Shown here: positions 51,801 to 64,000 of the stretch, piece after piece
Layout: each line of letters begins with the position of its first letter
How positions within the stretch are numbered: the stretch's first letter is position 1
Assembly (NCBI GenBank): GCA_029269725.1
Contig: JARJHS010000001.1
Location: 930,001 to 994,000, forward strand
Length of the DNA stretch: 64,000 nucleotides
Source: Pollutibacter soli
GTDB lineage: Bacteria; Bacteroidota; Bacteroidia; Chitinophagales; Chitinophagaceae
Reading direction: 5' to 3'
The notes under the pieces: model-generated
What the model was told of the DNA's origin: nothing
Databases searched by the model: none
The model's input: the letters and a program-made list of their open reading frames with translations, nothing else
Translations under genes and position numbers: made by a program

Positions 51801-54182
51801 CTATTTTTTAGTTTGAAGTGTGATCTTTTCCAGCTTACTGTTAAACTTATTTGAGCTGCCATAATTTGCGACCGGTGTTCCTTCATCGATTCCGACATCA
51901 GCCAGATCATCCACAGAAAATAATCCCGGCTGTGTTTTTTCAATTCTTCCCTCTCCCACTTTAGCACCATCAATAGAAATTGTTCCGATGCCACCTTTGC
52001 CTACACCGCCATCATATGTAAAGTCGTAAACAATGGAATGTTTCCCTGGTTTTAAAACCTGTGATGAGGTTACATGATACTGATCCAAACCAAGGTAGTT
52101 ATATGTAAATACTGGTTTTCCGTTTCTGATATAAAATGAGAGGCCACCAAATCGTCCACCCTGACAAATCAACACGCCATTAGCGTTGGCTTTTACGTCT
52201 ACGTCGGCCGTGATGGAATAAGATGTATTTCTGAGATTGATGAATATGTCAGGCCCCATGCCTTTCATACCTTCCCCGAGAGTAAGCGAAGTCCGACCGT
52301 CCATAATCGTTGGCCGGCCCACTGCTGCTGCATCTGCGCGAATTAACAGGCGGTCATCGATCGGAAGCACATGCAACCTTTCGGCCTCACTCATAAATAA
52401 AGCCTGCAGCTCTTTTAATTTTTCAGGATTCTGTGCCGCTATATTTGTCGCGAGACTGAAGTCTTCGTTTAAGTTAAACAATTCCCAGGTATCTGCTTCT
52501 AAAGTCTGGTATGGTTTCTGGTTCCATGCCGCACGGTGAATTGTTCTTGCATACCAGCCGTCGCTGTAAATGGCCCGGTTACCAAACATCTCGAAATACT
52601 GCACCGTATGCTTTTCTTTTGCAGCAGCGTCATCAAAACTGTAAAAGAAACTGGTGCCTTCGATTGGATCCTGGTTGATGCCGTCAACAGTTCTGGGAGC
52701 AGGGATATGAGAAGCCTCATAAACAGTTGGTGCAATATCTATCACATGTGTAAACTGCGATCGGACTTCTCCTTTAGCCTTAATTCCATTTGGCCAGTGT
52801 GCGACCATCCCATTTCTGGTTCCACCGAAATCTGACGCCACCTGTTTCGTCCAGGCAAAAGGTGCATCCAGTGCAACAGCCCAGCCTGCAGCCATATGCG
52901 GATAAGTTGATGGTCCACCCCATTCCTCGTAATGTTTCAACATGTCAGGCACAGTTTCCGGAACGCCATTGAAATACGTCATTTCATTGTACATGCCATT
53001 CATCTGTCCTTCGGCACTTGCGCCATTATCCCCAACCACATAAAGAATTAAAGTGTTGTCGAGTTCGCCCAGTCCTTCGATTGCCGAAACAAGGCGACCT
53101 ATTTCATGATCTGTATGTTCTCCAAACCCGGCGAAGGTCTCCATCTGGCGCGCAAACAATTTCTTTTCATCTGCAGACAGCTTATCCCAGTCTTTGATAT
53201 CCGTTGGTTTCGGAGCAAGTTTCACATTTTGTGGTACAAGACCCAGTTGCTTTTGTTTCGCCAGTGTTTCCTCTCTCAATTTATCCCAACCTGCATCAAA
53301 TTTGCCTTTGTATTTTTCAATATATTCTTTCGGTGCGTGATGTGGGGCATGGCATGCACCTGTAGCGAAATACATAAAGAATGGTTTCTCCGGTGTGAGC
53401 GCCTGCTGGAAACGTACCCAACTGATCGCATTGTCAGTCATATCAGTTGTGAAATGATAATCCGGATCCTTTGAATGTTCCACCTGCGTAACACCATCAT
53501 AAATCAAGGGCGACCATTGGTTGGTTTCACCACCGATAAATCCATAAAATTTATCAAATCCCGAATGCGTCGGCCAACGGTCAAGCGAACCCGAAACAGA
53601 GATCTCCCATGGCGGTGTTTCATGGTATTTTCCAAAGGCTGCGGTGCTGAACCCATTTTGTCTCAAAACCTCTGCCATCGGGGTGATTGACTGTGGACGT
53701 ACTCCCGTATTACCCGGAAAATTGGTTCCGGTTTCCATAATAGAACCCGCATTGTTGCTGTGATGATTATAACCTGTCAGCAAAGCGACCCGTGTAGGAG
53801 AACAAAGTGCAGTGGTGTGAAAACGATTGTATTTCAATCCGCCGGCTGCAAGCCTGTCCAGTGTAGGCATATTAATCGGACCGCCAAACGCAGCAGACGC
53901 GCCAAACCCGATATCATCGATCAGCACCACAAGTACATTCGGTGAACCTTTCGGCGCTGTTACCTGGAATCTCGGCGGAGCCTGTGCCTTCGCGGCGTCG
54001 AGCTCTTTGTATAATGGTCGTATAGGCTCTTTAATTGGCAGGCTCGTTCTGTCTAACTCACCCGACGCGGCAAGAGGCGTCCCTGCATTATCTGTTGATG
54101 CTTTCTTGTCTGCCGTATTGCAGGCACAAAAGAAAATAAACAAACCAGCCAGCCATTTTGCATTGATCAGTCTTAATTTCAT
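51801..54182 (-). CDS. arylsulfatase lipoprotein (S1-type)
   Basis: This is a 793-aa sulfatase with lipobox FCAC (Cys21). The active-site motif C127-S-P-T-R131 in TTALCSPTRVALLTGY becomes formylglycine. The divalent-metal Asp pair is in VLVVLIDDIGFGA. Later FVYVVGDNGAS-like and YDPVT-like motifs of S1 sulfatases follow in order, and after about residue 600 there is a lectin/LamG-like beta-sandwich (GGRFGGLSFYIRNGKPVF). It removes sulfate from a glycan or small ester outside the cell. Two sialidases and other hydrolases are in the window, but not in this operon. No maturation enzyme is seen. Confidence 0.92.
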   Translation of the reverse strand: MKLRLINAKWLAGLFIFFCACNTADKKASTDNAGTPLAASGELDRTSLPIKEPIRPLYKELDAAKAQAPPRFQVTAPKGSPNVLVVLIDDIGFGASAAFGGPINMPTLDRLAAGGLKYNRFHTTALCSPTRVALLTGYNHHSNNAGSIMETGTNFPGNTGVRPQSITPMAEVLRQNGFSTAAFGKYHETPPWEISVSGSLDRWPTHSGFDKFYGFIGGETNQWSPLIYDGVTQVEHSKDPDYHFTTDMTDNAISWVRFQQALTPEKPFFMYFATGACHAPHHAPKEYIEKYKGKFDAGWDKLREETLAKQKQLGLVPQNVKLAPKPTDIKDWDKLSADEKKLFARQMETFAGFGEHTDHEIGRLVSAIEGLGELDNTLILYVVGDNGASAEGQMNGMYNEMTYFNGVPETVPDMLKHYEEWGGPSTYPHMAAGWAVALDAPFAWTKQVASDFGGTRNGMVAHWPNGIKAKGEVRSQFTHVIDIAPTVYEASHIPAPRTVDGINQDPIEGTSFFYSFDDAAAKEKHTVQYFEMFGNRAIYSDGWYARTIHRAAWNQKPYQTLEADTWELFNLNEDFSLATNIAAQNPEKLKELQALFMSEAERLHVLPIDDRLLIRADAAAVGRPTIMDGRTSLTLGEGMKGMGPDIFINLRNTSYSITADVDVKANANGVLICQGGRFGGLSFYIRNGKPVFTYNYLGLDQYHVTSSQVLKPGKHSIVYDFTYDGGVGKGGIGTISIDGAKVGEGRIEKTQPGLFSVDDLADVGIDEGTPVANYGSSNKFNSKLEKITLQTKK

Positions 54183-54305: not shown

Positions 54306-54524
54306 TCAACATTTTTTACCAAGGAAATTTAGGATCTCTTTCTCAAGATCACGGTTCAACTGAAGATACCCACGCTCCATCTCCCGGTCCTTAATCAGAT
54401 CTTTCCTACGCTTCTCCATAGCTTCAATGCTCGTCAGATTGTCTTCACACAAACCCAGAAAATCTTCGTCCATGTTATACAAAGCAACAATTCCCGAGCG
54501 GTGTCCAGGAAATTTTGACAACAT
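54306..54524 (-). CDS. small charged hypothetical protein (72 aa)
   Basis: Starting MLSKFPGHRSGIVALYNMDED, the product is short, acidic and probably helical, ending LQLNRDLEKEILNFLGKKC. Recurring words such as DFLGLCEDN and EAMEKRRKDLIKD match the layout of small uncharacterised proteins I recall from other bacteria, but I cannot name a family. It is on the same strand as the sulfatase, 123 bases upstream of it. Confidence 0.5.
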   Translation of the reverse strand: MLSKFPGHRSGIVALYNMDEDFLGLCEDNLTSIEAMEKRRKDLIKDREMERGYLQLNRDLEKEILNFLGKKC

Positions 54525-55323: not shown

Positions 55324-58300
55324 ATGCTTTTTAACGAATTTATCAGCGGACTTGCAAATATTATCCAGGCGGGAGAAGACAATAATGATCTTACTGCTAT
55401 TCCTAATTACACCACTTTTCTGGCGCCCTCATTCAACCTGATTAATAACACCGATAAAGATCATCTCAGGGAAATCTTAAAAGCCATCGCCGCCTGTTGG
55501 GAGATGTGTAAAGATGCTCCTTTCACTGAAGCTCGCCTGTTAAAACCGGATTTCTTTAAAACAACACCGACAATTCCCGCTCCTCCTGTAAACGAATACA
55601 TCTGCGGCCCGTTGTTACGCAAGGTGGACGAAACATCAGCGTCCGTCTGGATCGCATTACCAAAATCCGATAAAGTCATTTGCTCAGTATTTGAAAATAA
55701 TGGAGGTAATGCGGGAGATAAGATCATGGAAGGAACTGCCAATACGCTCCCTTTTGGTCCAAAACTGCATATCGCTTTAGTTACGGCAAAAATTCTCTCC
55801 GGTAAAAAAGCAAATTACGGCGACACTTATTTGTATGATCTCAAATTCAACCTACATAAAAACCTGAATGCATTTACCGGAAATGAATTCACTTATTCCG
55901 GACACCAGCTTCCGTCATTTGTAATGCCTCCGCTGGATCTGAATAAACTGCATATTATACATGGATCCTGCAGGAATATGTCGAGCGATGCATTGGATAA
56001 TCTGCCAGGCATCAATACGCTGATCAAAGACAATTTCTCTGGCAGACCGCACCAGATGTTCCTCAGCGGGGATCAGATCTATGCTGACGAATCTAATGAA
56101 ATACTGGAACATGTTACAATCGAAGTTGGAAATGCATTGATGCCTGCAGCGGCAAATGCAGAGAAGATTATTCTTAAAGATGGAGAAACGACCACTGTAG
56201 ATCCATCCAAAGTCAAACCCGGAGAACGCGGCATCAATACATCCACAAGACCATTCATTGTAGATAGTATTCCATATAATTTTCCGGAACTCGTGAGGAA
56301 ATTTGTGAACGGTGAAACGCCGGAAACCCGGGATTTCATTCACGATTTCTGTGGTTTTACACCCACCTCCCGATTTCATCTTTTTTCTCTTGCTGACTAT
56401 TTCTCTACCTACCTGATGAACTGGACGGACGTTATCTGGCCCATCTATTTTAAAAGCGATGCCATCATTCAATGGGCCACAAAACTTACTATCCTGCACA
56501 AACAGGGTGAAGGCAGCGGAATTCCATCGGGTTCGAAATCGCTTTTAACAGAACTCAAATCTGCGATATCAAAAGTGAGTGATATTGCAAAGGATTATGA
56601 ACTCGGTTTAAAAAAGCTAAAAACAAAAAACACAGAATTTGATACACAGTTAAAAACACTACTCGGATTTAAGAAATTTCTGCAGATCCTCAACAGTCTT
56701 TGTGATTTTGTAAGTACAGTTGTTTTTGTTTCGAATCTAAAGGACTTACGCAGAGCAATGGCCAATATTCCTACCTATATGATTTTTGATGATCATGAGG
56801 TGACGGATGATTGGCACATGACGCGTGAATGGGTTCGCCGCGCGTATTCATTCCCTATGGGCAGACGTGTAATGCAGAATGGGCTTGCATCATTTGCTGT
56901 TTTCCAGGCCTGGGGAAACACGCCTGAAAAATTTAATTTATCGGACAGTACTTCATCAGGAACAAAACTACTGAATGCGGTTTCCGCCTGGATCAATAAA
57001 AATTACAATGACCAGGCACAGGAAAAAATCATCGCCAACCTGCTGAAAATTCCTTTCGGATCGCAGGTCGCAAAATATAAACAGATCACGCCAGGTGATA
57101 CATTTCCTGATATTTATGATAAGCCGTTGGAATGGCATTTCACCTACAGGCACCCGAAATACGAAGTGATCGTGATGGATGCAAGAACCTTCAGAAGTTT
57201 TCCCGGGTCTTTCTATGGTCCCGCGGATCATGTCAGCGAAAAATCGATAACGGCCCAGACTGATAATCCCATAAAACTTGCGGCACCGTTCGATAAAGAC
57301 CCTCCTGAGTTAACTATTGTTATATCGCCATGCAATGTATTGACCATACCGATGTTCAGAAATTACCTGAGCGCCGTTGCACTTCCGATGGCACATTATA
57401 TGATGGGATTTGATGGATCAAGATGGAAGATGACGGCATATGATCCCGACCAGGCTGATTCATGGGAGGTTGCTTCAAAATTATTCGAGACACTGCTTGC
57501 GAGACTTGCAACACGGACTTTCAAAAATTTCCCCGATAAACCACGGAAATCAAAAGTCGTCATTCTTTCAGGTGATGTGCATTTCAGCTTTGCCGGAAGA
57601 GTTGCCTATTATGCTGAAAAGCCTCTCAACACCACCGAAACAAAGCAACATGACCTCGTCGCTGCTCATCTTACATCAAGCGGCTTCAGAAATGAGCCTG
57701 GTGCATGGAAGCTGTTGCAACTCGACAAACTCGGATATGAATTCTCCGATTTCGGTAACAGCAGTTTGCGGTTACCCGAGCCTGATATCATGATCGGGTA
57801 TGCAAAAAAGCCGGCAGCATTTAATAAGACAAAAACAGACGAAGTAGTTACACGTACACGCTGGTTTCCCAATTTCAAGCCAGCTATGATGATCGATACA
57901 CCATTGTTACTGCCTGCTCACAAAATTCATCCGGATGTCTCTTTACCAAAACCGGAGTGGATGTATCGGCTGGATTTCTTCCGTGCTATCAATGTAAAAG
58001 ATGTGCCCAATATTACCGATATCAAACATTTCAAATTGGTCACTGATCAGAAGCCATCAACAGAAATCCTGCGCAGAAGCAGCTTTGCGGAGATCAGTTT
58101 TGATTGGGAAGGCGAAGGAAAACTGATAAAAGCTGTTAACGATAAAGAAAAAACACTGGAGGTTGACACTGGCGCCGGAAAGAAATTTCCCCCGGCTCCT
58201 TTTTATGTAACGGTTGAAAATGAAATCATGTACGTAACATCGGCAACTCCGGTCGATAACAAAATAACGATGACGGTGACTCGTGGAAAAAGTGATTCAA

Positions 58301-58491
58301 AGAAAGCGGCGCATATCAAGGATAAAATTGTGAAAATACGCCAGGGTGTAACTCAAACCAATTGGGTACATATCGAGCCTTCAAAAAAAGATACTGTGCA
58401 GAAATTGAATGTCACTCCGCTGAACCGCTTTAAAGTACCGCTTTCGTCAGAAGATCTGCAGTTTCCAAAACCAACTGTAAAAACCATTTGA
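55324..58491 (+). CDS. giant PhoD-like phosphatase (1055 aa) with phage-tail-like C-terminal module
   Basis: This is a 1055-aa cytoplasmic-looking protein (no signal peptide, MLFNEFISGLANII start). It belongs to the PhoD-like metallophosphatase family: GSCR at 214-217, SGDQIYAD with Asp250, FDDHEVTDDW with Asp489, Asp490 and His491, and SGDVHFS with Asp751 and His753. Classical PhoD is exported through Tat; this one is not. Residues about 940-1015 look like a module of tail-fibre proteins, with PFYVTVENEIMYVTS, a MTVTRG turn and AAHIKDKIVKI. It is the first gene of a tight cluster; the next starts one base after its stop. The role is unknown. Confidence 0.8.
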   Translation: MLFNEFISGLANIIQAGEDNNDLTAIPNYTTFLAPSFNLINNTDKDHLREILKAIAACWEMCKDAPFTEARLLKPDFFKTTPTIPAPPVNEYICGPLLRKVDETSASVWIALPKSDKVICSVFENNGGNAGDKIMEGTANTLPFGPKLHIALVTAKILSGKKANYGDTYLYDLKFNLHKNLNAFTGNEFTYSGHQLPSFVMPPLDLNKLHIIHGSCRNMSSDALDNLPGINTLIKDNFSGRPHQMFLSGDQIYADESNEILEHVTIEVGNALMPAAANAEKIILKDGETTTVDPSKVKPGERGINTSTRPFIVDSIPYNFPELVRKFVNGETPETRDFIHDFCGFTPTSRFHLFSLADYFSTYLMNWTDVIWPIYFKSDAIIQWATKLTILHKQGEGSGIPSGSKSLLTELKSAISKVSDIAKDYELGLKKLKTKNTEFDTQLKTLLGFKKFLQILNSLCDFVSTVVFVSNLKDLRRAMANIPTYMIFDDHEVTDDWHMTREWVRRAYSFPMGRRVMQNGLASFAVFQAWGNTPEKFNLSDSTSSGTKLLNAVSAWINKNYNDQAQEKIIANLLKIPFGSQVAKYKQITPGDTFPDIYDKPLEWHFTYRHPKYEVIVMDARTFRSFPGSFYGPADHVSEKSITAQTDNPIKLAAPFDKDPPELTIVISPCNVLTIPMFRNYLSAVALPMAHYMMGFDGSRWKMTAYDPDQADSWEVASKLFETLLARLATRTFKNFPDKPRKSKVVILSGDVHFSFAGRVAYYAEKPLNTTETKQHDLVAAHLTSSGFRNEPGAWKLLQLDKLGYEFSDFGNSSLRLPEPDIMIGYAKKPAAFNKTKTDEVVTRTRWFPNFKPAMMIDTPLLLPAHKIHPDVSLPKPEWMYRLDFFRAINVKDVPNITDIKHFKLVTDQKPSTEILRRSSFAEISFDWEGEGKLIKAVNDKEKTLEVDTGAGKKFPPAPFYVTVENEIMYVTSATPVDNKITMTVTRGKSDSKKAAHIKDKIVKIRQGVTQTNWVHIEPSKKDTVQKLNVTPLNRFKVPLSSEDLQFPKPTVKTI

Positions 58492-58492
58492 A

Positions 58493-61400
58493 TTGGCAGA
58501 AGAAAAACCAAAATCAAAAAGTAGTTTTCTTGAAGAGTTTTTAACCTTCATGGACCTGTTCATCTCCTTAATGTCGGCAAATAAATTATTGCTCGACAGC
58601 ATTTCGATGGCAGGTTATGATCTTGGGAAAATGGATAAGCCTGATAATACGGGTATGACGAGCCTGGATAAAGTGATGGACACTGCCGACGAAGTTAAAC
58701 TTGCGTACGAGAATATTGCAGAACTCATTCGCGGAAGCTGGAAATCCTGGGATGATATAAAAGACCGTGCAATCCTTGCCAAAGATCTTTACCAGGAATA
58801 TAAAAAATGGCAGGAAGCAATGGAGCTTGCGGGTGAAGAAGCAGGGCTTGATGTGGAATGGGAATTATTGGGTAAACATCTCGGAAAACAATTGCTGCTG
58901 AGAAGCGGTGCGATATTTCTTCCGTGGCTGGTGCAGGGATTGCGATTACTGGATTGGCTGAAGGTTGGAAATGAAAATGAAGGAGCCGGTCCCGAAAAAG
59001 ACACCACCGGAAAGGTGATTCGTTACCCATATCGCGGACTGGATTTCAACAAAGAAGGAGTCAAAGCATTTTTTGATGATCCTGGCGGAAGTCTGAAGAA
59101 GAAATACCTTGAACAGAAATCACGCTCACGGGCAATAGTAGCCGAACCGGATGATTTGCTATTGGTCAGGCTAAGGGACTTTTTGCTGAGTCTGAATATT
59201 CCTGCGGTATATGGTTTTAATCTTACTGATAATTTTGATGCAGATGACTCTGTAACCGATTATGCTGCTGAGCTCAATCATACTCTTTCCACCTGGTTTC
59301 GCATTCCCGGCACGGAAAGTACCATCGCCTTTAGTTTGCTTCGCAAAGGTGAAAACATCCTGGTGACACCAATTTTTGAAGGTACTGCAAGTGATCAATC
59401 ATTCACTTGCGGGAAATGGTCATGGTCACTCGCGGCAACAGGAGAATCGAATCCATTCATCATATCTCCGGAGAAAGGTATTGACTATCCCGATGGAACT
59501 CCCCAGAATGTAAGTATCCGGTTTACCGGTGGTTTCAATCAGCCATCTGCAAACGGCGATCAGAAAAAAAAATCGGATAGCGTTGGTCCGGCGGAAGGTA
59601 CGCGGCTGGAAACAGGTCCCATCACTTTTGTTGCCGAAATAGACTTACAGGGATCAGCGAAAAAAGCAACCATCGAATTGAAATTATCCGATGGAAAATT
59701 TATACTGCAACCCACCGATGGTGATAATTTTTTAAACAGGATACTTCCGGAAAAAGGATTTACCATCAATTTCAGTCTGGCAATGGGTTATAATAACCAA
59801 AGGGGATTTTATCTTGATGGTTCCGGCGGTGGTGAGATTACCATTCCATTAAATAAGCAATTCGGCAAGGTTTCAATACCCGCGTTGCAGTTGGGTTTCA
59901 GAAAAAAGCCTGATGCAGATAAATGGTCGTTGTATGCTTCCTTATCCGGGCGATTAGAACTTGGCCCGGTGAAATTGATGGTGGATAAACCCGGTATGGC
60001 CCTGGTCATACGAACACCGGAGCCCGGGGAAACACCAAATCTTCTCGAGCTTACAGCAGATTTCGATTTCAAACCACCGGATGGAATCGGAATCGAAGTG
60101 AACGCAGCAGGTGTTGTGACCGGAGGTGGATACCTGTATATCGATCGCGACAGAGGTGAATATTTCGGTATTGCGGCACTCACAATAAAAAATAAAATCC
60201 AGGTATCGGCCATTGGCATCATTCAGACCCGCCTGCCCGGCAACAACAGCGGGTACTCCTTCCTGTTACTCATCAGTACTGAATTTCCACCGATTCAATT
60301 GGGCATGGGCTTTACTCTTTCAGGTGTAGGTGGAATTGTTGGAATTAACCGATCCCTGCAGCTGGAAAAACTTCGCGAGGGTCTATTCAATAATGCTGTT
60401 GATGATATTCTGTTTCCGCAGAATGTGTTGCAAAATGCCTATGGCATCATCAGCAATATCAATACCATCTTCCCACCTGCTGAAGGTCAGTATGTTTTTG
60501 GATTGATGGCGAAACTCAACTGGGGGCCACGGAATATCATTTCCCTTGAGCTGGGCCTTATTCTGAAATTCCCCTCACCTGTTTATATCGCCATCATAGG
60601 TGTACTGCGTTCGGTAATTAAGAAAAAACTCGCAGGTGCTGAATTCAATGTGCTTGAATTGCAGGTCAATTTTGCAGCAACGATCGATTTTGAAAAACGA
60701 TTCATCAGTTTTGACGCTACATTATTTAATTCGAAATTACTTCAACTGAAAATTGAAGGTGATATCTGTCTGCGTATTAAGTATGATGACAATCCTGATT
60801 TCGCAGTAACGATTGGCGGATTCCATCCGGATTTTGAACCGCCGGCATTGAACCTGCCTGCAATTATCAGAAGGCTGAAAGTGATTATTCGCTCGGGTAA
60901 TCCGGAGATAACGGCCGAATGTTATTTCGCCATCACGAGTAACTCCGTACAATTTGGTATTGCCGGATTATTCCTGTTTAAAAAATGGGGTGTACAGATC
61001 CGTGGTGAACTTTCTTTTGATGCAATCTTCCAGCTGAGTCCGTTCCAGTTCCGGACCGATGTACACTTTCTGCTATCAGCATCGTGGAAAGGATATGATT
61101 TTGCATCGATCGAAGTGAATGGAAGTTTCTCCGGCCCATCGCCCTGGCATATCAAAGGAAGTCTCAGACTTTCTGTCTGGATATTCAGCAAAACTGTTTC
61201 ACTGGAAGAAACCTGGGGTGATGATGATGAAACCAGGATTGAACAGGTGGATGTATTGCCATTGCTTATTGCCGATCTCAGCGACATAGCACATTGGGAA
61301 ACGCTGGAACTCCAAGTGAGTCCAGGCGTAAGTCTCCGGAAGGATCCTAAAAAGACAGAGCTCAAAGAACTCATCATTCATCCGAATCAATCGTTGATCA

Positions 61401-61999
61401 TTCATCAGCATACATTGCCATTGGGTGTTCAGCTGGATCGTTTTGGAGGGCGCAGGCCATCCGGAGCTTCCCATTTTACAGTTGCGCTTAAAGATAAAAC
61501 CGGCAATGGCATCGCATCAAAAAATGTACAGCATCATTTTGCTGCAGCGCAATTCATCGAGCTTTCAGAAGAGGATCAATTGCATCTTCCACCATATGAA
61601 TTGTTTGACAACGGGGTAAGCGTTGATGGCCTCGACATTGCGTTTTTTGATGGTTTCACTCCGGTTGAAGTAGTATATGAGTCAGATATACTCGATCTCG
61701 AAGGCATGACCACCCCACCGAAACAAACAAACGACGCGGTTGCCGGAGAATTCGAATTTGCGCTGCTTAATAATTCACTGGTAAATGCCAGCTTTACAAA
61801 AATGCAAAAATCGGCTGCGCTCCGGGAGAAAAAGACTGTCCGGGAAAAATATACTATCGTAGACGCATCAACGAACACGTCACCCGTGCCGACTTCATTT
61901 ACCAGTAAGGCAGTGGCAGCAAGGGAAATAAGAAAAAGAAATAAAGTAGATGGTAATGAAACCACACAGCATTTTTTTATTCAAACGGTAACTGAATAA
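58493..61999 (+). CDS. giant DUF6603-like protein (1168 aa)
   Basis: The start is a TTG at 58493, one base after the PhoD stop (TGA-A-TTG), so translation is coupled. The N-terminus (about 1-170) is helical and acidic; the middle is rich in beta strands; and residues about 600-910 follow the DUF6603 pattern as I recall it: GVGGIVGINRSLQLEKLREG, DDILFPQNV, INTIFPPAEGQYVFGLMA, IGGFHPDFEPP, TSNSVQFG and a FSGPSPWHIKGS strand. No signal peptide or membrane segment is seen. The family is found in diverse bacteria in clusters of large proteins; no function is established to my knowledge. Confidence 0.75.
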   Translation: MAEEKPKSKSSFLEEFLTFMDLFISLMSANKLLLDSISMAGYDLGKMDKPDNTGMTSLDKVMDTADEVKLAYENIAELIRGSWKSWDDIKDRAILAKDLYQEYKKWQEAMELAGEEAGLDVEWELLGKHLGKQLLLRSGAIFLPWLVQGLRLLDWLKVGNENEGAGPEKDTTGKVIRYPYRGLDFNKEGVKAFFDDPGGSLKKKYLEQKSRSRAIVAEPDDLLLVRLRDFLLSLNIPAVYGFNLTDNFDADDSVTDYAAELNHTLSTWFRIPGTESTIAFSLLRKGENILVTPIFEGTASDQSFTCGKWSWSLAATGESNPFIISPEKGIDYPDGTPQNVSIRFTGGFNQPSANGDQKKKSDSVGPAEGTRLETGPITFVAEIDLQGSAKKATIELKLSDGKFILQPTDGDNFLNRILPEKGFTINFSLAMGYNNQRGFYLDGSGGGEITIPLNKQFGKVSIPALQLGFRKKPDADKWSLYASLSGRLELGPVKLMVDKPGMALVIRTPEPGETPNLLELTADFDFKPPDGIGIEVNAAGVVTGGGYLYIDRDRGEYFGIAALTIKNKIQVSAIGIIQTRLPGNNSGYSFLLLISTEFPPIQLGMGFTLSGVGGIVGINRSLQLEKLREGLFNNAVDDILFPQNVLQNAYGIISNINTIFPPAEGQYVFGLMAKLNWGPRNIISLELGLILKFPSPVYIAIIGVLRSVIKKKLAGAEFNVLELQVNFAATIDFEKRFISFDATLFNSKLLQLKIEGDICLRIKYDDNPDFAVTIGGFHPDFEPPALNLPAIIRRLKVIIRSGNPEITAECYFAITSNSVQFGIAGLFLFKKWGVQIRGELSFDAIFQLSPFQFRTDVHFLLSASWKGYDFASIEVNGSFSGPSPWHIKGSLRLSVWIFSKTVSLEETWGDDDETRIEQVDVLPLLIADLSDIAHWETLELQVSPGVSLRKDPKKTELKELIIHPNQSLIIHQHTLPLGVQLDRFGGRRPSGASHFTVALKDKTGNGIASKNVQHHFAAAQFIELSEEDQLHLPPYELFDNGVSVDGLDIAFFDGFTPVEVVYESDILDLEGMTTPPKQTNDAVAGEFEFALLNNSLVNASFTKMQKSAALREKKTVREKYTIVDASTNTSPVPTSFTSKAVAAREIRKRNKVDGNETTQHFFIQTVTE

Positions 62000-62010
62000 C
62001 GAAAAAGATC

Positions 62011-64000
62011 ATGGCTTCTGCTCAATATACATTTCTTCCGTGGTTCCGAAGAGGCATTATGGGGCTGCAGCAATCGGCTGAAACACCTGCTAATGCTGCT
62101 GTTTCCATTCCATTGCGCCTGGACATCACACCGCAGGGAGCGACTGTACATAAGATAGAGAAACAAGTGAAGCTCTATGGTCCTGGAGATATAACAGGAA
62201 TTGACCGAAGAATGGTAGTACGAACCATTCCCAGGATGGGTACTAAAACTTTTGAATCCAATTTTCTATGCGGAATTGAATTTTATGATGAAGATTTTCC
62301 ATGGCGATACACACCTTTAAAAAACAAAACACTACAGCTTTCTCCCTGGATCTGGCTTGTCGCATTGCAAACAGACGAATTCGTTAGAAATGCACCCATA
62401 AACGAACAGCTTCCTGTAATTGAGATCATCGGAGACGCGATGAAAACTGCATTTCCTGACCCTGCAACCACGTGGGCATGGGCACATACGCATCTTAATT
62501 TTCAGATTGAAGGAGCCACGCTAACGGACAAACGAAATACTGTTACCGAACGACTAAGAAATAATCCTGAATCCGGCTGCTCCAGATTACTTTGTCCGCG
62601 GCACCTGAAACCACTCACCACCTACACAGCTTTTCTTGTCCCGGCTTTTGAAAAAGGAAGGCTCGCGGGTTTGGGTGCGGATGCATCTGTAATTGACAAC
62701 ACGCCAAATGTTCAGCCGTCCTGGACAAAAGACCAGTCGGGTTCCGTAAAATTTCCTGTGTATTACGAATGGCAATTCACCACTGACAGTGCCGGGGATT
62801 TTGAATCATTGGCGAAGAGACTTGCACCCCTCACCGATGAAGAAAAGAAAAAACTCAAAGCCGCGAAAAAGACAATGTCGATTACAAACCCGGGCTGGGG
62901 TTTAACACATACCGTTCCTGATCGTGAACTGGAAGTTGAAAGCGCGTTGCGAATGGATGATGACGAAGGAAATCCGAATAATAATAACAGCAACAATCTT
63001 GTAACTCAAATAACAGATGAAACCAATCCTGCTGATAAAAAGTTTGTGCAGGCAATAGCCGACCTTTTGAACCTGGGCGTTGGTGCCTATCTGAACGGGA
63101 CAATTCCAGACGAAGATCATCCATGGTATGCAGATGGTTCACTGGAAGATGATCCGATCATTACTCCGCCTTTGTATGGGGCATTTTACAGAAATCCGGC
63201 GTTGGGCAAAACAGATCCCGGAAGTTTATTCACTCAACCAAACACAAAATCCTGGTATCATCAACTCAACCTGAATCCTGTGTTTCGTGTGGCGGCAAGC
63301 AAAGGAACATCTGTTGTACAAAAAGACCAGGACGCATTGATGGATCGCGCATGGGATCAGCGTGAAGCCGGATATGCATTGCAGCAGGTAATTGAAAGAT
63401 GGCACTATTCCGTCGTTCTCAGTAACCAATTGTTTGCAAGGAAAATTGAGCCGCTCATCAGTGATGCTTCGGCAAATGCGGATAAAACCTGGACAGCTTT
63501 AAGTTTTATCGCTCCGATGAATAATTTTTTGTCAGCCAATGGAAAAAATTTCAACACGGCTTTCCAGGAAAGAACGTTTGCCAACATATTCAGCGCTTCA
63601 TTTAGAAAACTGGTTACAAAAAATAAAAATGTAAAATCAAGAACATCGGTTAACAAGGCGCAAACAGGTGCTGCGCCTCCACCCGGTGGAAATACAACTG
63701 TTTTGCGTGCTGCTGCGCCCGATCTCGTGGCTATCAATACCAGTTTTATCGTAACACAGCCGAAAATTATTTTCTATAACCCAACAAGAACAAATTTTCT
63801 ACATGATCTGCTGCAGCAGGTATTTGATGACCTGCATCGGTTATTAAAAGGTCAACACTCGCCCATCATTAATCCTCTTTCTCCTTTGAAACAAAAAGAT
63901 GCGCTTCTGAATTCATTGGGATATGCAGGTTACAGTGAATGCAAATCTGCACTTTTCAACCTGGCAAAACTTTTTGAACCGAAACAAATTCCGTTTATCC
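62011..64000 (+). CDS. large unrecognised protein, third cluster gene (partial)
   Basis: ATG at 62011 (MASAQYTFLPWFRRGIMGLQ), 11 bases after the previous stop, opens a frame that runs to the end of the window (at least 663 aa). Early residues read VKLYGPGDITGIDRRMVVRT, DFPWRYTPLKNK, SPWIWLVALQTDEFV. A Pro/Gly-rich linker (GAAPPPGGNTT) lies near residue 555. There is no signal peptide. I cannot assign a family, although the YGPGD-x-x-GIDxRMVVRT pattern looks conserved enough to be a family signature. It belongs with the PhoD-like and DUF6603-like genes in one operon. Confidence 0.8.
   Translation, partial: MASAQYTFLPWFRRGIMGLQQSAETPANAAVSIPLRLDITPQGATVHKIEKQVKLYGPGDITGIDRRMVVRTIPRMGTKTFESNFLCGIEFYDEDFPWRYTPLKNKTLQLSPWIWLVALQTDEFVRNAPINEQLPVIEIIGDAMKTAFPDPATTWAWAHTHLNFQIEGATLTDKRNTVTERLRNNPESGCSRLLCPRHLKPLTTYTAFLVPAFEKGRLAGLGADASVIDNTPNVQPSWTKDQSGSVKFPVYYEWQFTTDSAGDFESLAKRLAPLTDEEKKKLKAAKKTMSITNPGWGLTHTVPDRELEVESALRMDDDEGNPNNNNSNNLVTQITDETNPADKKFVQAIADLLNLGVGAYLNGTIPDEDHPWYADGSLEDDPIITPPLYGAFYRNPALGKTDPGSLFTQPNTKSWYHQLNLNPVFRVAASKGTSVVQKDQDALMDRAWDQREAGYALQQVIERWHYSVVLSNQLFARKIEPLISDASANADKTWTALSFIAPMNNFLSANGKNFNTAFQERTFANIFSASFRKLVTKNKNVKSRTSVNKAQTGAAPPPGGNTTVLRAAAPDLVAINTSFIVTQPKIIFYNPTRTNFLHDLLQQVFDDLHRLLKGQHSPIINPLSPLKQKDALLNSLGYAGYSECKSALFNLAKLFEPKQIPFI

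Follow-up and report, generated by a model that had tools for sequence, protein, structure and literature searches.

Do three very large reading frames crowded at the 3' end of one stretch of DNA belong to a single system, and what could such a system do? The question is raised by 64,000 nucleotides of the Pollutibacter soli genome (G000:C1:930001-994000, hereafter the window), in which three plus-strand genes follow each other almost without spacing: A (55324..58491, ATG start, 1055 amino acids), B (58493..61999, TTG start, 1168 amino acids) and C, which begins at 62011 and runs to the window's end at 64000. A preliminary description, made from the sequence alone, took them for a three-gene cluster of a PhoD-like phosphatase, a DUF6603 protein and a third giant acting as one system. 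The open frames and the gaps of 1 base (A-B) and 11 bases (B-C) given there are confirmed, and both family names are borne out by Pfam: A matches PF09423 (PhoD-like) with 36.9 bits and B matches PF20248 (DUF6603) with 394.3 bits (E 1e-117, residues 453-1027), against cut-offs of 27.

The genome was read past position 64000 to complete C and find its further neighbours. C ends at 64968 (985 amino acids) and is followed after 6 bases by D (64975-70083 in window numbering, L002:10976-16084; 1702 amino acids) and, 222 bases further on, by E (70306-72042, L002:16307-18043; 578 amino acids). The window genes are the 5' part of a five-gene cassette, in which B, C, D and E (about 4,400 residues in this genome) form a co-inherited four-protein core. 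Pfam scanning of the window genome's proteins gives zero matches for C and D and a single match below cut-off (E 0.05) for E.

The constancy of this core could be followed in other genomes. Scanning genome contigs for B yielded 435 stretches that code for a DUF6603 relative; the best 80 were kept and examined. Of these loci 79 contain C, 69 contain D and 35 contain E, always on the strand of B and in the order B-C-D-E, with one exception to the order, L056, where the genes are rotated on one contig (C, D, E, an M64 enzyme, B). The sequence stops at most 128 bases past C in the 11 loci without D and at most 221 bases past D in the 34 loci with D and without E. E is not visible in 45 loci; the genomes of 29 of these were searched, E being scored anywhere in the genome and not by its position relative to B; full core E was found in 27, a contig-end piece in one and none in one. 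L115 shows a partial E at the locus and full core E in its genome. The median spacing is 3 bases between B and C (88 loci), 5 between C and D (76) and 2 between D and E (45); opposite strands occur in none, and the distance lies within 150 bases in 75 of 88, 63 of 76 and 42 of 45 cases, respectively.

The cassette, about 15-22 kilobases long, is present across many bacterial phyla and salt-loving archaea; the tree of B spans 13 phylum names, archaea included, several of them represented by metagenome bins. A B relative is also carried by 14 plasmid records, including haloarchaea, Streptomyces and Rhizobium. In the six plasmid records that were opened, C and D adjoin B throughout and E is found by profile searches in five of six frame sets, some genes being split; in the sixth (S. 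europaeiscabiei), the annotated gene at E's place aligns with E. The proposal that the homologues could prove scattered fails because C, D and E keep beside DUF6603 homologues, on the same strand, across phyla. The expected recurrence of a PhoD-DUF6603-third-protein trio is seen for the DUF6603-C pair; PhoD is not constant, and other enzyme classes stand in its place elsewhere.

Two drawn samples, scored for B, C and core E, were tested because the 80 loci are best matches only. Among 296 Bacteroidota (window's genome included), DUF6603 exceeds the cut-off in 12, and full-length C and core E occur in six each, in identical genomes (G000, G033, G080, G111, G211, G217), where both adjoin B. The six remaining DUF6603 genomes carry a divergent (type II) DUF6603, and two of them match C over about 100 residues. 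The second sample comprises 149 genomes from the phylum to which G310, carrier of Streptomyces locus L104, belongs. There B, C and core E share an identical set of three genomes, one of them the sample centre, and lie within about 15 kilobases in each; in G433, C and E match less strongly and as fragments. Neither C nor core E is seen outside DUF6603 genomes in either sample, as expected of one system. E-profile matches besides core E (24 further Bacteroidota genomes and 27 in the second sample) fall in its lamin-tail part. In a control set of 14 well-known genomes, DUF6603 was found in none.

Two variants of B were noticed. Type II DUF6603 was seen at seven loci in six genomes (G039, G166, G099, G065 twice, G048, G157; L024-L031, L038, L039, L044-L046), with a longer B (1292-3223 amino acids), a C-like protein having about 80 N-terminal residues in common with C (hhalign, 6 of 7 loci) and a further protein family of 1222-1411 amino acids in 7 of 7. 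Algoriphagus-type loci (L088, L090-L092, L094, L097, L098, L100, L105, L108, L109, G111) encode a B of about 2200 amino acids, whose N-terminal extension aligns with itself (shallow profile) and has no detectable homology to the B core. No enzyme was recognised ahead of the Algoriphagus-type B.

Elsewhere the gene directly upstream of B is usually an exchangeable enzyme, mostly a hydrolase. A PhoD-like gene (A profile) holds this place in 15 of the 80 loci. The genes of the preliminary cluster are linked, but the cluster is a five-gene cassette, and a three-gene phosphatase system is rejected because PhoD is replaceable and two further core genes exist. Other first genes exceed Pfam cut-offs as subtilisin S8 (L086, L062, L104, L127), M64 (L056, L057, L068, L095, L110, L125), M14 (L089), PLD (L069) and tyrosinase (L052). 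Trypsin-like first genes carry GDSG with a Trypsin_2 score below cut-off; L082 exceeds the Nal1_C cut-off. Two groups of eight first genes have a conserved histidine and an IRGCxIG-like motif, are mutually related around the motif (hhalign 93 percent) and are read as putatively caspase-like; they have no Pfam match, and a PDB search gave nothing convincing for them. L119 could be papain-like and L078 glycosidase-like, judging by motifs and without a Pfam match.

Class labels outside the Pfam-scanned representatives come from BLAST clusters and motifs, L116 and L126 take their label from an A-profile match on another frame, and the row of L099 in the caspase-like-A group represents the partner domain only. 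High-GC (guanine plus cytosine) actinobacterial first genes include antisense frames (e.g., L107, L113, L116, S_europ), and several of ten further unclassified frames that were scanned or read are antisense in high-GC genomes. Upstream of B, L125:2-8786 contains a tandem array of three genes (971, 980 and 948 amino acids) that belong to a single BLAST family, the last being M64 by Pfam. A protein of about 228-327 amino acids stands beside caspase-like or S8 first genes in L072, L074, L087, L062 and L099; it is homologous to the N-terminal part of 1052-residue first genes (G217, L058).

The first gene is usually closely coupled to B. The median distance is about 2 bases (median index 6, since the index counts the stop codon; in G000 an index of 5 corresponds to 1 base), and the index lies between -110 and +60 in 55 of 66 cases. 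A module of 112 amino acids forms the C-terminal end of both trypsin- and subtilisin-class first genes; in L060, L061 and L067 it stands alone upstream, as single-module open reading frames (ORFs) of 128-148 amino acids, and L122, L111, L112 and L102 encode other proteins that bear it. This module is a candidate docking tag for the trypsin and subtilisin classes only. The A protein of the window does not carry it, and a sequence search of the module against solved structures gave nothing convincing. Among the 296 Bacteroidota it occurs in three genomes, in two cassettes and one lone trypsin-like gene (L131:1465-2877, 470 amino acids), whose genome, G029, has no DUF6603 match.

Exchange of the enzyme could be traced on the B tree, several long branches of which are unsafe. 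Its 92 rows exclude the type II regions and G108, and it was built by quick search under LG+G4 with SH-aLRT as the sole support value. Labels of 12 kinds were placed on 78 of 92 rows, 12 of these being the Algoriphagus-type fusion, and the class of the first gene changes at least 25 times. After 18 near-duplicates were dropped, the 60 remaining rows require 25 changes versus a shuffled mean of 39 (minimum 33), which therefore indicates inheritance plus frequent exchange. Sister pairs with unlike enzymes have SH-aLRT values of 97-100 (L102/L104, G211/L110, L072/L062, L068/L069, L052/L055). The phyla are interleaved on the tree, which suggests horizontal transfer.

In the window's cassette, the residues S215-C216-R217, G249-D250, I252-Y253, D255, D489-D490-H491, G750-D751 and H753 of A are invariant in 13 cassette homologues (13-row alignment); C216, D250, Y253, D489, D490, H491, D751 and H753 are presumably the PhoD catalytic and metal-site residues, and these motifs are kept. 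Compared by sequence alone with solved structures, A gives no match, and no PhoD structure was found; its profile retrieves TAL-repeat chains only, judged to be chance. B is predicted to consist of N-terminal helices and a long antiparallel beta meander at about 380-910 (AlphaFold2, pLDDT 77.8, pTM 0.49). Foldseek returns eight PDB matches at E <=0.001 for this model, mostly outer-membrane barrels, with query TM scores of 0.11-0.14 and not read as homology; ApoB100 ranks lower, and at most B may loosely resemble large amphipathic sheets. The B profile matches mainly coiled or designed proteins among solved structures (best 5e-5, helical part). For the C homologue of L052 (pLDDT 79.7, pTM 0.69), Foldseek finds no match in PDB (best E 0.64) or BFVD (best 0.62). 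Profiles against solved structures give lamin tails only for E, nothing convincing for D and nothing for C, and pairwise comparison of C, D and E reveals no mutual homology.

As the preliminary description had it for the first three proteins, no N-terminal stretch of A-E reaches the signal-peptide threshold of a hydropathy scan; residue 687 of B, within the predicted beta region, barely exceeds the transmembrane threshold. The core is poor in cysteine, with medians of 0.17 (B), 0.28 (C), 0.27 (D) and 0.34 percent (E) versus 0.68 for 100 flanking proteins; these were taken from 145 eligible ORFs (loci below 56 percent GC, near-duplicates dropped). Accessory domains include lamin-tail (haloarchaeal E), FG-GAP (Streptomyces C) and PG_binding (a Streptomyces PhoD-like first gene), and L061 has PKD-like matches below cut-off.

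The following mechanism is proposed. The four core proteins would come together in the cytoplasm as a single large complex, in which B would be an elongated, beta-rich element, and the exchangeable enzyme would dock onto this complex beside B. The complex would deploy the enzyme on a target outside the producing cell, either once the cell has lysed or via an export route not yet recognised. Its working would be that of a modular effector-delivery particle with a constant core and a swappable payload, built from unrelated parts. A large assembly and a particle-associated substrate for the phosphatase, both suggested in the preliminary description, may thus hold. That the cassette with its exchangeable enzyme encodes such a modular enzyme-deploying complex is given an even chance; complex formation, docking and outside action are its inferred parts. 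Action outside the cell is weakly favoured by the mostly secreted-type enzymes, the cysteine-poor core and the extracellular-type accessory domains. More tentatively, the cassette could specify an undescribed cross-domain particle of four giants (three without a recognised family), built in the cytoplasm and delivering one exchangeable enzyme to other cells or surrounding polymers without Sec or Tat.

Several observations weigh against an enzyme-deploying complex. The complex, its export and its target rest on inference; the B model has the low pTM given above, and its structural matches are very weak. The signal-peptide test was a crude hydropathy scan on longest frames, with L049, L121 and L126 outside it, and among the 63 labelled first genes scanned only L061 passes, at residue 30. 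No export gene recurs around the cassettes, few of which show E's downstream side (17 near-duplicates dropped). First genes are not cysteine-poor (0.58 percent in the A family, 0.78 in all first-gene frames). The caspase-, papain- and glycosidase-like classes are motif-based, and the Pfam matches of the trypsin-like class are below cut-off; on the tree, an enzyme goes unrecognised in 26 of the 92 rows (14 without a label, 12 Algoriphagus-type fusions), and in Halalkalicoccus and Halobellus the first gene falls in no class and has a probable transmembrane stretch. In type II loci D is not recognisable within the stretch, and their genomes lack core E, so that B can work with other partners.

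The alternative that survives best, though it is considered rather unlikely, is an intracellular conflict system, anti-phage or self-limiting, in which the giants would sense or restrain and the released hydrolase would attack cell components. It would account for the swappable trypsin-, subtilisin- and caspase-like proteins, for a module common to different protease classes that also stands alone, and for the cassette's patchy occurrence and its presence on plasmids; the flanking proteins include some encoded by type I restriction-modification genes. However, tyrosinase, M14, M64 and PhoD would be unusual as abortive effectors. PADLOC finds no family in A-E up to an E value of 5 and, on the 100 flanking proteins, no family matching more than two at 1e-10 among the 25 of 157 families listed; the flanking Pfam families (25 of 160 listed) are mainly metabolic or regulatory. 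A defence-island setting is not supported. The variable proteases and the small module common to them recall the effector-associated-domain (EAD) systems, conflict systems dependent on nucleoside triphosphates (NTP) and described by Kaur et al. (2020, PMC7159879); the cassette differs in that Pfam finds no NTPase family, and no P-loop NTPase, in B-E.

A complex that matures or packages large degradative exoenzymes, serving nutrient scavenging (phosphate in the case of PhoD), appears improbable. In its favour, most of the enzyme classes are degradative, the PhoD motifs have been retained and GH43 accounts for 5 of the 100 flanking proteins, but the cassette is rare (12 of 296 Bacteroidota by DUF6603), the phyla are interleaved on the B tree, and one core is combined with chemically unrelated enzymes that show no signal peptides in the hydropathy scan. 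Chance clustering of large genes, for which no supporting point was found, is practically negligible, being refuted by the shared strand and gene order that 79 of 80 loci from many phyla show and by the identical genome sets of C and core E in the two drawn samples.

Phage origin was also considered and rejected: B is unmatched in phage records, limited pattern scans match neither B nor C in viral contigs, and PHROGs matches are weak only, the best (tail-fibre family, E 0.031) falling in the C-terminal part of A.

Comparison with known systems places the enzyme-deploying complex as follows. B is a clear member of DUF6603, to which Pfam assigns no function; neither DUF6603 or PF20248 nor the constant C-D-E neighbourhood and the exchangeable enzyme appear in any open-access paper searched, subscription papers and preprints lying outside this scope. 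Classical PhoD is Tat-secreted. A resembles PhoD-like phosphatases in its Pfam score and motifs and differs in that no signal peptide was seen in the hydropathy scan and in being linked with genes for giant partners. Tc toxin and Rhs cocoon complexes combine large proteins lacking a signal peptide with an exchangeable enzyme payload, and contractile injection systems show patchy spread and varied cargo. The cassette, known here from its genes, could be alike to both in working only: Pfam finds in A-E no TcA, TcB or Rhs domain and no sheath, tube or baseplate family, and the payload of the cassette is a separate upstream gene.

In the window's genome, the cassette is preceded by a divergent, minus-strand sulfatase-like gene (51801-54182). 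The 800-base gap reported ahead of A holds if a minus-strand ORF of 72 amino acids (54306-54524) is counted (799 bases); to the gene ending at 54182, the distance is 1141 bases. Downstream of E lie an ECF-like (extracytoplasmic function) sigma factor gene, an anti-sigma-like gene and two ferritin-like genes (L002:18142-19510 and L003:372-1948), named, like the sulfatase-like gene, by reading their sequence. E's downstream side is visible in few other loci, and recurrence of the sigma, anti-sigma and ferritin genes is seldom observable. Scanning of the window with Rfam gave zero matches, and promoter and terminator scans gave no signal exceeding chance. On a different contig of the same genome, a phage-sheath match below cut-off (23 bits versus 31.4) was seen at G000:C6:84305-84568.

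One position of the cassette accepts chemically unrelated enzymes, and DUF6603, to which no function has been assigned, gains a testable context from the cassette. Should the core dock such enzymes, it would represent a natural plug-in scaffold and possibly a new route of protein deployment.

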